Origin: Reichenbachiella agarivorans
GTDB taxonomy: Bacteria; Bacteroidota; Bacteroidia; Cytophagales; Cyclobacteriaceae
DNA length: 64,000 nt
Reading direction: 5' to 3'
Assembly: GCF_025502585.1 (NCBI RefSeq)
Contig: NZ_CP106679.1
Span: 3,069,501-3,133,500, forward strand
Below, piece by piece: positions 15,393-23,498 of the stretch (position 1 is the first letter of the stretch; the number at the start of each line of letters is the position of its first letter). The notes under the pieces are model-generated. The model did no database searches. It was not told the DNA's origin and worked only from the letters and a program-made list of their open reading frames with translations. A program made the position numbers and the translations under genes.

Positions 15393-16277
15393 TTAGGACA
15401 GCTGTAATTTATAATTATTGTCTAATACTTCAACCTTCAGAGAGTCCAAGAGGGTACCCTCTTGGACTCTCTGAAGGTTTTCTCCGAACATTTTTGGAGT
15501 AATCCTACCAAGGCTATCATGCGGGCGATGGTTATTGTAATCTTCCATCCACTTATCTACTTCTTCTCTGGCCTGGTCGATGTGCTCAAATACAAACGCA
15601 TCAAACACGCCCCGGCGCAGAGAGCCATTGAACCTTTCGATGTAAGCATTCTGCGTGGGCTTGCCTGGTTGGATGTAACAAAACTCAATTTCTTGCGCAT
15701 AACTCCATGTTTGGGTCATTAAGGCTATGAATTCTGGCCCATTATCCATCCTGATGCGCTTTGGTTTTCCTCTCCTATTGATCAGGTGGTTCAGTACCCA
15801 GATCACTCGACTGCTTTTTAGTGAAAAATCTACTTCTATATGCAATGCCTCTCTGTTTGCATCATCCATTACGTTGAAACTTCTGATTTTTCGACCATTT
15901 ACCAATCTATCCTGCATAAAGTCTATTGACCATGTATGATTAAGGTGATTCGGAGCCTCAAGATGCTGCTTGGACCTAGCGGGGAGACGTTTCTTCTTCT
16001 TGACCCTTAAGGATAGCCCCAGAGCTTTGTAAACCCTATATACCCTTTTATGATTCCAATGCTTGCCCTCTAGTCTAAGGCGGCCATAAGCCTTCCAAAA
16101 ACCTTCTCTGGGAAATTGTGCAGCCTTATCATTCAAAGCCACTTCAATCGGGGTGTCATCCTTTTGGGGTTTATAATACATCACCGACCTAGACACATCC
16201 ATTACACGGCACGCCCTGTTGATACCGTATTTAGGCAGCTCTTTACTAATCCTACGCTTATCACAGGGCTTTAGAGC
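15393..16277 (-). CDS. IS3-family transposase OrfB (DDE integrase part)
   Basis: The catalytic part of the transposase. It is read after a -1 frameshift from OrfA on A AAA AAG, giving a fused OrfAB of about 381 residues; the first internal ATG is at 16202. The rve-type integrase core has the three catalytic acids in [14 protein letters not shown] and NAYIERFNG, with the usual D-D-35-E spacing. An N-terminal HTH_21-like segment ([12 protein letters not shown]) precedes it. It cuts and joins the IS ends. The last 30 codons contain a perfect 48-bp DNA palindrome. The stop lies inside the IS, 16 bases from its end. Confidence 0.92.
15432..15479. repeat. Perfect 48-bp palindrome inside orfB
   Basis: The 24-base arm AACCTTCAGAGAGTCCAAGA plus GGGT is followed without any spacer by its exact reverse complement. 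It lies in the 3' end of the transposase gene and is translated as the segment around [16 protein letters not shown]. The mRNA would form a very stable hairpin on both strands. Confidence 0.95.
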
Positions 16278-19252: not shown

Positions 19253-21046
19253 TCAGGCCAAACTGAGCTTGACGGTAAAGGTAGTACCTACACCTGGTTC
19301 TGAATCACATTCTAGTTCTCCACCTAGCAGCCCAATGTATTTGTTGACAATCGATAAGCCAAGACCTGTGGATCGCTCACCAGCAGTAGCTTTGGCACTC
19401 AATACTTGGAATTTCTTAAACATGTTCTTTTGATCAGCAGCGGTCATCCCAGGGCCTTCATCTTTGATTTTGACGAGAGCCAGATGGTTTTGAGCCGTGA
19501 GGTCGATAAAAACCTTCTTTTCATGTGGAGAGAACTTGATTCCGTTGGATACTAGATTTTCTATCACATGGAATAGGTACTGCTCATCTCCCAGTACCTC
19601 CACATCGGGTAGTAGGTTGGTGATGATTTCAATTTTTTTAGCACTGGCATGCGTAATATTTGTTTCTACGACATGTTGTACGACTTTTGTCAAGTTAATT
19701 CTTACGAATTGCTCAGAGGTTTTGGATTCGATCTTTTCAATGTCCAGGATCTTGGTTACCATCTTATTGAGCCTCATGGACTCGTTGGCTATATGGTTGA
19801 TCATTCTACTTTGCTCTTCGTTGAGATCCTCTGGATTCATATTCAATATGTTGGCCAAAGCAGTGATGTTGTTGATCGGAGCTCTTAGGTCATGGGAGAG
19901 GATGTGGATGAAGTTATTCTTTTCTTCGTCTCTACTGACCAAGTCTTCGTTTCTTCTAGATAGCAGTGCATTTTGCTGCTCTATCATCTGCCTGTGTTTG
20001 GTTAGGATTTCGTTTGCCTTGGACTTGACTCTGTTGCTATTGAAGAGAAAATAGGTGATGGTCAATGCCAAGATGATCGATATCAGCAAGATGTTTTGGA
20101 TATAGCTTTGTTCTTGCGCTTGTTTTTCCTTGGAATGAAGCTCTTCGTTCATGTAGCTCTTTTCCCTTTGGAGCAAAACTATTTCTTCATTTTCGCCTTC
20201 AGCGATGTGTGATATCAGTTGATTGACATCATATCCGAGATACTTTTGAACGGATTTGGTTCTCAATAGCTCAAATTCCTTGCTTGCGAGGAATTCGTTG
20301 AGGGGAATATTCCAATCACTATCCAAACTGAAAATCATGCAGTAGCCAAAGCCTTTTTTGGAGAGCAGGTTCTGTCTTTTGATCTTCTTGTTTTTGTTGA
20401 GTGCCAAGATGTAGTTGGGCAAGTCCACATAACCAAACGTCATTTCGTTGGATTCTATGTATCTAATGATGTCATTGCTAGAGCGGATGTGCTGTAGCTC
20501 AAACTCCATTTGTTGACTTTTCATTAGTTCTCGGAGGTAGATGTCATAGGTAGTACCCTCGACAGATACCGCAGTATAGTCCTCAAACATCTCTGCAAAA
20601 TCCTTGATGGACTCTATGGTTGGTGCACTTCTGTTGGTGATGAGTACCTGAATGTCTGGGAAATAGGGGGCTGAAAATTTGACTTCTTTTTCTCTCTCTG
20701 GTACTTTGGATATGATATCAAGTCCTATATCACCTACTTTAGAGTGGTCTTTGATTTGAGAGTAGATGTCTCCAAAACTTCTTTTCAATTCCCAAGTCAG
20801 GGTCAGATCATATCCATATTGATTGAGGAGATAATATTTGAAACCCATGAGCATTTCGTACTCGAGACCTTCGAGGGTACCCTGCTCGGTGATGATTAAA
20901 AAAGGGTCAGAATGACGGTAGTAGATTGTGATTTCTCCACGTTTATTCTTTTGCAATTGTGCCCAAGACAAGTCAGTCGCTACTGATGAAAAAGAACACA
21001 ATATCAGTACAATACAACCCCAAACTATAATAGTACTTTTTATCAC
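19253..21046 (-). CDS. Sensor histidine kinase with periplasmic solute-binding (SBP_bac_3-like) sensor
   Basis: A 597-residue hybrid-layout sensor. A signal peptide (about 1-24) leads to a periplasmic domain of about 260 residues with SBP_bac_3 features: EITIYYRHSDPFLI, LEGLEYEMLMGF, DIGLDIISKVPEREKEVKFSAPYF and AVSVEGTTYDIYL. A coiled-coil and a membrane helix (YIQNILLISIILALTITYFLF) follow. The kinase core has H-box SHDLRAP, N-box HVIENLVSNGIKFS, G1 DEGPGM and G2 STGLGLSI. It probably senses an amino-acid-like ligand outside and phosphorylates a response regulator, but no cognate regulator lies nearby. It is divergent from the SiaB-like kinase gene, which suggests a functional link. Confidence 0.9.
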   Translation of the reverse strand: MIKSTIIVWGCIVLILCSFSSVATDLSWAQLQKNKRGEITIYYRHSDPFLIITEQGTLEGLEYEMLMGFKYYLLNQYGYDLTLTWELKRSFGDIYSQIKDHSKVGDIGLDIISKVPEREKEVKFSAPYFPDIQVLITNRSAPTIESIKDFAEMFEDYTAVSVEGTTYDIYLRELMKSQQMEFELQHIRSSNDIIRYIESNEMTFGYVDLPNYILALNKNKKIKRQNLLSKKGFGYCMIFSLDSDWNIPLNEFLASKEFELLRTKSVQKYLGYDVNQLISHIAEGENEEIVLLQREKSYMNEELHSKEKQAQEQSYIQNILLISIILALTITYFLFNSNRVKSKANEILTKHRQMIEQQNALLSRRNEDLVSRDEEKNNFIHILSHDLRAPINNITALANILNMNPEDLNEEQSRMINHIANESMRLNKMVTKILDIEKIESKTSEQFVRINLTKVVQHVVETNITHASAKKIEIITNLLPDVEVLGDEQYLFHVIENLVSNGIKFSPHEKKVFIDLTAQNHLALVKIKDEGPGMTAADQKNMFKKFQVLSAKATAGERSTGLGLSIVNKYIGLLGGELECDSEPGVGTTFTVKLSLA

Positions 21047-21224: not shown

Positions 21225-21902
21225 ATGAATGATATATCACAAAGCATGCTTGGGGCGTTTGACGAATGGAAAGAGGAACAACGGAAAAAAACAGAAATGA
21301 TCGATCAGGCAAAAAAAGGGACTAAGTCCAGTGAAGAGGTCAATAGTGTCAGTAGTTTTGATTTATACAACAGGATATACAATGAGAATATTCTGTTGAT
21401 GTACAAAGGCGCGATTACGTTTGACTTGGTGACATCAGTGATAGAGACTCTTGACCGCAAAGTAGCGCAGGTAGAAACTGATAAAAAAGTGCAGAAACTG
21501 TTTTACAGCGCTGCAGTGGAAGTGGTACACAACCTGTATCATCACATGGACGAAATCAAAGGACAGTTCGATGGCGTATCAGATTATGATGCAAAATCTG
21601 GATTGATCACCGTGCTAGCCAAAGAAAAGTACTACAATATCTTGACTGGCAATTTTATTCCTACCAAAAACACCTATGATCTGAAAGCCAAAATTGATGA
21701 GGTCAATACCACTGACAAGGATGGTTTGAGAGCCCTGTATAAGGAAACGCTCAGCAATGGACAATTCTCTGACAAAGGAACGGCTGGCCTAGGACTGATT
21801 CAATTGGCTCGAAAAACAGGAGAAAAATTGAATTATAAGTTTGACAAGGTAAACAGTGAATACTCATATTTCACTTTTCAAATTAAGATCAACAGATTTT
21901 AG
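21225..21902 (+). CDS. SiaB-like (DUF6272) partner-switching protein kinase
   Basis: A 225-residue protein with the pattern of the SiaB / DUF6272 group, which has a GHKL ATPase fold. Visible marks are ENILLMYKGAITFDLVTSVIE, the N-box-like helix AAVEVVHNLYHH and a G2-like loop GTAGLGLIQLARKTG near the end. In Pseudomonas SiaB phosphorylates the SiaC switch protein to control c-di-GMP signalling and aggregation; here the partner is not in the window. The first 45 residues are charged and probably disordered. It is divergent from the SBP-sensor kinase gene 178 bases away and ends at a strong bidirectional terminator. Confidence 0.75.
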   Translation: MNDISQSMLGAFDEWKEEQRKKTEMIDQAKKGTKSSEEVNSVSSFDLYNRIYNENILLMYKGAITFDLVTSVIETLDRKVAQVETDKKVQKLFYSAAVEVVHNLYHHMDEIKGQFDGVSDYDAKSGLITVLAKEKYYNILTGNFIPTKNTYDLKAKIDEVNTTDKDGLRALYKETLSNGQFSDKGTAGLGLIQLARKTGEKLNYKFDKVNSEYSYFTFQIKINRF

Positions 21903-22010: not shown

Positions 22011-23498
22011 TTATACGAACTCTACATCTCTTACTTCGCCGTTTTCACAACTCGTGCATCGCATGGCGTGTCTGAGTACACCAGGTTTTAGCATGGATTT
22101 ATTGAGAAGCATGCGTACACACTCTTGGATACCTTCTATAATGGACGGGTGAGGGTGGATTAGTTCTGCCAGTTCTTCGATTCCTTTGCCCATAGAGATG
22201 AGCAAAGCAACAGCCTCGATGGCACTGGATGCATGTTCGCCGATTACGCGCATGCCTAATATGCGCATTTCTTCATCTTTGGATACGATGATCTTGATGA
22301 AACCATTGGTGTTGCGCATGGCAATTGCTCGTGAGATACAGCTATAGTCCAAGCAGACCATTTTGTAGGGGATGCCCAGTTCTTTGGCTTTTACCTCGTT
22401 GATACCCACGCCTGCTACCTCTGGAGCCAAAAACATTATTGTAGAGATGTTTTCGTAGTTTAAGGGACGTTTAGGGTGTCCAAATATTTTTTCCACAGCA
22501 TATCTACCTTCTAGTTCTCCTACATTGACCAAAGCGATATCAGCAGTGATATCGCCTACGGCATATATGTTGGGGATTGATGTCTGGGTGAGTTCATCTA
22601 TGATGCCTCTGTTGTCTTTGTCAATATGGATCGATCCAGAAATCAGGTTTTCATAATTGGGCAATCGACCCACTGAAACCAAAGCTTTTTCGACATGAAA
22701 AATTTCTTTGGACCCGTTGTTGTACTCTAGCGTATAGACGACCATGCCATTTTCAATCTTCATGTCAATCAACTGAGAGTTTCGGTGTATGGTCACGTCT
22801 TTGCTTTCCAGATTTCTTTCGATGATACTTACGACATCTTCGTCTTCAAAGGGTAGGATTCTATTGCCTTTGTCTATCATGTACACTTTGGTCTGTCCAA
22901 AGTTGGAGAAGATCGTCGCGTACTCACACCCGATCACGCCAGCACCCACGATTACCATGCTTTTTGGAAATTCCTTGAGGTTTTCGATCCCGTCACTGGT
23001 CAGGATGATTTCTTCATCGATTGGGATGTTGTCAAGTTTCCTAGGTCTACTGCCAGTGGCCAAGATGATGTTGTCAGCTTTTATTTCTAGGTCTTCGCCA
23101 TCGTTTTGCTGAATAGAGACAATGTTTGGTCCCACTACTTTGGCTAGTCCACGTTTGAAATGAAAATACTCATCGCTGCTATTGACATTGATGTTGTGCA
23201 TATGGTGCTCTAGTAATTCACGTCGGCCATCGATGGCTTTGTCCACTTCGGCTTTTAAGGTTTGGAAATTGTAGCTAGGGATTGGTAGACTGGTTGTTTT
23301 GCAATGGGAACGGAGTGCAAGTGCTTCCCTAGATAGTTCCCACCAGGTTTTGCTCGACAAGGCTCCATTGTGAAGTCCTACTCCTCCAATCTTATGCTTT
23401 TCTACTAATAATACTCGCTTTTTGAAATCAACAGCTCTCATCGCCGCTGCGTATCCAGCGGGTCCCCCGCCTATAACACAGACATCATATTTCTCCAT
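22011..23498 (-). CDS. Lipoamide-dehydrogenase-like FAD oxidoreductase without the redox disulfide
   Basis: A 495-residue class I pyridine nucleotide-disulfide oxidoreductase by fold. FAD binding is VCVIGGGPAGYAAA (residues 6-19), NAD(P)H binding is MVIVGAGVIGCEYA, and the second FAD motif is NIYAVGDIT. The dimerisation domain contains the base motif HPHPSIIE. The active-site segment that normally reads GGTCLNxGCIPSK is GGVGLHNGALSSK, so both redox cysteines are replaced (G41, A46). A CTSC motif (C481, C484) is present 12 residues from the C-terminus. It cannot work as a standard dihydrolipoamide dehydrogenase. It may be a transhydrogenase-like or quinone-reducing flavoenzyme. It forms a single-gene unit. 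Confidence 0.85.
   Translation of the reverse strand: MEKYDVCVIGGGPAGYAAAMRAVDFKKRVLLVEKHKIGGVGLHNGALSSKTWWELSREALALRSHCKTTSLPIPSYNFQTLKAEVDKAIDGRRELLEHHMHNINVNSSDEYFHFKRGLAKVVGPNIVSIQQNDGEDLEIKADNIILATGSRPRKLDNIPIDEEIILTSDGIENLKEFPKSMVIVGAGVIGCEYATIFSNFGQTKVYMIDKGNRILPFEDEDVVSIIERNLESKDVTIHRNSQLIDMKIENGMVVYTLEYNNGSKEIFHVEKALVSVGRLPNYENLISGSIHIDKDNRGIIDELTQTSIPNIYAVGDITADIALVNVGELEGRYAVEKIFGHPKRPLNYENISTIMFLAPEVAGVGINEVKAKELGIPYKMVCLDYSCISRAIAMRNTNGFIKIIVSKDEEMRILGMRVIGEHASSAIEAVALLISMGKGIEELAELIHPHPSIIEGIQECVRMLLNKSMLKPGVLRHAMRCTSCENGEVRDVEFV

Follow-up and report, generated by a model that had tools for sequence, protein, structure and literature searches.

The window, which is the whole stretch of 64,000 nucleotides analysed from Reichenbachiella agarivorans, encodes a flavoprotein built on the dihydrolipoyl dehydrogenase (LPD) scaffold, in which both redox-active cysteines have been replaced. 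The orthologues of this protein share the loss and form a conserved bacterial family incapable of the LPD reaction by the known mechanism, yet the catalytic base of that reaction is retained. We tentatively regard them as a distinct subfamily of the flavoprotein disulfide reductase superfamily, in which disulfide chemistry has been permanently lost; this is one part of an overall explanation considered possible and somewhat short of probable. The label dihydrolipoyl dehydrogenase is given almost automatically to enzymes of this superfamily, and the family flags a likely misannotation. A literature search found no description of such a family in Bacteroidota. The gene has an intact frame and lies at the coordinates given in an earlier note on this DNA, which did not state the strand (Table 1).

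Table 1. Position of the gene and of its characteristic elements in the window
Feature	Position	Strand	Basis
LPD-like flavoprotein CDS, cysteine-free at the redox site, 495 aa	22011..23498	-	orthologues, purifying selection
Degenerate redox site GGVGLHNGALSSK, codons 38-50	23349..23387	-	G41 and A46 at the two cysteine positions; aligned to E. coli Lpd, SthA, Gor and the LPDs of the same genome
Second dinucleotide motif MVIVGAGVIGCE, codons 181-192	22923..22958	-	alignment
HPHPSIIE, codons 448-455, catalytic dyad His450/Glu455	22134..22157	-	conserved in 93/93; aligned with the LPD dyad
C-terminal extension, codons 474-491, predicted beta-hairpin (strands 479-485 and 488-491)	22026..22079	-	AlphaFold; LPD structural matches stop near 471-473
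CTSC, codons 481-484	22047..22058	-	C481 in 85/93, C481+C484 in 23/93

In silico analysis of the protein revealed the following features of the superfamily: (i) the Pfam domains Pyr_redox_2 (179 bits) and Pyr_redox_dim (88 bits); (ii) the FAD motif GGGPAG and the NAD motif GAGVIG, together with ATGSRP and AVGD; (iii) the dyad His450/Glu455; (iv) an LPD-like three-dimensional fold, the AlphaFold model (pLDDT 91) matching LPD structures at an rmsd of 1.7-2.0 over 452-461 residues (for example 1.7 over 457 residues for 2qae). Comparison with the aligned E. coli proteins Lpd, SthA and Gor bears out the proposal of the earlier note that the FAD, NAD and His-Glu base motifs are kept while both active-site cysteines are replaced. 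Within GGVGLHNGALSSK, residues 41 (Gly) and 46 (Ala) occupy the positions of the redox cysteines in the E. coli Lpd segment GGVCLNVGCIPSK.

The best NCBIfam model for the protein is that of dihydrolipoyl dehydrogenase (TIGR01350), at 366.7 bits against a curated cut-off of 408.8. Fold, length, FAD and NAD motifs and the dyad (HxHPTxxE in LPD) are common to both, whereas the family described here lacks CxxxxC, falls under the cut-off and carries an additional C-terminal hairpin. Two other full-length relatives, both canonical LPDs with the redox motifs CLNVGC and CLNWGC, are encoded elsewhere in the genome, and the LPD-like protein is therefore not the E3 of R. agarivorans.

Conservation has been evaluated in 93 non-redundant, full-length orthologues, 46-84% identical, from Cytophagales, other Bacteroidota and genomes labelled Kapabacteria and SAR324. 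Positions 41 and 46 are Gly/Ala in 81 of them, Gly/Val in 8 and Ala/Ala in 4, so that a cysteine is found at neither position in any member (0/93). His450, Glu455, Lys50, Ser49 and Trp53 are present in all, although the scan of species genomes employed peptide patterns including HPHPSI and GAGVIGCE, and the share keeping these residues may be inflated. The same invariance, including the cysteine loss and His450/Glu455, has been observed in a set of 18 members (A1) obtained from whole-genome protein searches in which no motif patterns were used. At the genus level, dN amounts to 0.03-0.15 with synonymous sites saturated, which corresponds to strong purifying selection. Since all 93 relatives share the loss under such selection, it is not a product of chance or sequencing error; a pseudogene is likewise ruled out by the intact frames, the purifying selection and the same replacement in all orthologues.

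The gene occurs in all eight Reichenbachiella genomes searched, the copies of the seven other species being 80-84% identical. It was found in 45 of 291 genomes of the order and, sparsely, in 8 of 395 across the phylum. The family is delimited by a clear identity gap, as orthologues in the order searched are at least 51% identical and the next homologues, ordinary LPDs, reach about 32-33% or less. The scan of species genomes yielded 80 loci with identity down to 46-48%, mainly in Bacteroidota, with some labelled Kapabacteria, SAR324 or Proteobacteria, not all of these taxon labels of MAGs being reliable. The plasmid search gave no match at E 1e-70, and phage records gave matches of about 31% identity only. 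If the gene was inherited vertically, the catalytic base has been retained since at least the split of Cytophagales and Crocinitomicaceae.

In LPD, the cysteines lie at the si face of the isoalloxazine and the His-Glu pair of the partner subunit faces the same site. On this geometry, loss of the two cysteines would open the si face, with His-Glu still facing it. The best explanation, offered tentatively, is an NADH-dependent FAD enzyme whose si-face pocket is open and which directly reduces a non-disulfide acceptor, a quinone-type compound being the best guess, with the partner His-Glu as proton donor. The enzyme would be a homodimer in which NADH reduces FAD from the re face and the small residues at positions 41 and 46 keep the si-face pocket accessible. 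A small acceptor, most likely quinone-type, would then take the hydride directly from FADH2, and the proton would be supplied to it by His450-Glu455 of the partner subunit. The proposal of a previously undescribed bacterial oxidoreductase family, in which the LPD scaffold and the His-Glu acid/base are reused so that FADH2 passes its hydride directly to a specific new metabolite without thiols, is considered unlikely. The family provides a clean test of the role of the His-Glu dyad in an enzyme that has lost the disulfide.

Menadione, ferricyanide and DCPIP are artificial acceptors, reduced by many flavoproteins. As its acceptors are of this kind, Irc15p of Saccharomyces cerevisiae is a weak precedent on physiology. 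Irc15p is an LPD homologue with Tyr and Ala at the two cysteine positions and an intact His-Glu dyad; the enzyme binds FAD, is reduced by NADH at 250 per s and reduces menadione, ferricyanide and DCPIP, and no disulfides (PMC6296175). Compared by its published description, Irc15p thus resembles the present family in the replaced cysteines, the retained dyad and the presence of a canonical LPD encoded alongside it. It differs as a yeast paralogue tied to microtubules with Tyr/Ala, whereas the family described here is bacterial, widespread and carries Gly/Ala. The suggestion of the earlier note that the protein may be a thiol-free flavoenzyme of the quinone or transhydrogenase type is supported in outline, in view of the family-wide cysteine loss with the dyad kept and the behaviour of Irc15p.

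Among quinone reductases, the NAD(P)H-quinone dehydrogenase LpdA/Rv3303c (NF005883, PDB 1xdi) shares the LPD fold (Z 40.7), an incomplete cysteine pair and the character of a non-disulfide reductase. The His-Glu dyad and one of the cysteines are missing from LpdA (PMC6296175), whereas the family studied here keeps the dyad and loses both cysteines, and its score for the LpdA model is 252.6 bits against a cut-off of 479.

The main rival, judged unlikely, is a soluble transhydrogenase (STH)-type enzyme, in which FADH2 formed from NADPH or NADH would give its hydride to NAD+ or NADP+. The full redox disulfide is missing from SthA as well, and the NAD-domain motif GAGVIGCE[YF]A[ST]IF is closer to E. 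coli SthA than to E. coli LPD (29% against 21% identity), but a canonical LPD-B group equals SthA in this closeness (29%). An acidic residue, D209, stands at the end of the beta-2 strand of the NAD domain in 88 of the 93 orthologues and is followed by an invariant Lys/Arg; this arrangement, counted for a transhydrogenase, suggests from sequence that NADH is favoured with NADPH still possible. SthA has CxxxxT and, at the position of the dyad His, a Tyr (YxxxxE), and its C45A variant loses about 90% of the activity, a roughly tenfold cost, and leaks H2O2 (PMC9460512). Both hallmarks are missing from the present family, in which GxxxxA/V or AxxxxA and the dyad His are found in 93/93, and the score with the NCBIfam STH model, 277, stays below the cut-off of 465.

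Replacement of the membrane transhydrogenase has also been considered. In the family-level group of R. agarivorans, PntB is less frequent in genera bearing the gene (6/15 against 18/19, Fisher p 0.0015), the genera being hand-counted from listed rows with shared ancestry uncontrolled. The anti-correlation vanishes across the order (7/27 against 34/89 genera, p 0.36), and the R. agarivorans genome has both genes. The family-level signal, which by itself would favour the transhydrogenase reading, is probably due to shared ancestry; the counts do not decide for that reading, and the replacement has been rejected.

The quinone-type reading, being purely thiol-free, does not explain why Cys481 is conserved in 85 of the 93 orthologues. 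The CTSC noticed near the end of the protein is present, followed by 11 residues. It is located in an extension which two AlphaFold models (built on 18 and 65 sequences; pLDDT 84 and 91) fold into a beta-hairpin, an addition absent from LPDs. In mercuric reductase (MerA) and the high-Mr thioredoxin reductases, proteins of related fold, an inner CxxxxC reduces a conserved C-terminal cysteine pair. By analogy, C481, either alone (forming a sulfenate or a mixed disulfide) or together with C484, might swing to the flavin of the partner subunit and replace the lost disulfide. The persistence of C481 in an otherwise fast-evolving tail speaks for this idea, as does the use of C-terminal pairs by MerA and thioredoxin reductase, but the inner CxxxxC on which those pairs depend is missing here and C481 itself is absent from 8/93.

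The pair, moreover, is not a family trait: C481 and C484 occur together in only 23/93 orthologues and in none of the seven congeners (CASF, CASY, CTSF, CACF, CTSY, CTSY and CRSF), and C484 has been gained and lost repeatedly on the tree (19 changes by parsimony, with shuffled labels giving a mean of 22.2 and a minimum of 17). The two cysteines, at i and i+3 of one predicted strand (pLDDT about 90), would face opposite sides, and a simple CxxC disulfide is therefore unlikely. A C-terminal redox relay is thus decidedly improbable, and the earlier proposal of a substitute redox centre of the MerA or thioredoxin reductase type is not supported. Gly487 is kept in 79/93, beside C481. It is more likely that the hairpin with its usually single Cys481 serves as a lid, a structural or an interface element.

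Alternatively, the protein might be a degenerate LPD that persists as a pseudo-enzyme with an NADH-sensing or structural role, signalling by a shape change dependent on the flavin redox state. Irc15p does alter its shape on prolonged exposure to NADH and O2 (PMC6296175), and conserved pathway context was not found around the orthologues. The invariance of His450-Glu455, Lys50 and all dinucleotide motifs is, however, that of a working catalyst, and such a pseudo-enzyme is held to be improbable.

Each neighbour family is limited to at most 11 of the 80 loci, those occurrences fall mainly in one clade, and no pathway is named by them. In two SAR324-labelled MAGs (L065:4334-8918 and L067:4337-8921), the orthologue is closely flanked by the genes of a ThDP enzyme and of pyruvate kinase, at intervals of 23 and 45-48 bases, which is likely an operon; this arrangement was not found at other loci. 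In the window, a DUF6272 gene (21225-21902, plus strand) is convergent with the LPD-like gene, and members of its family are also found close to the orthologue in L043, L094, L102, L110 and L113. A histidine kinase gene is present at 19253-21046 (minus strand), the N-terminal part of its product resembling a periplasmic solute-binding domain (SBP_bac_3, just below the cut-off). An ORF at 15393-16202 (minus strand) resembles an IS3-type transposase (integrase core), as judged by eye from its translation.
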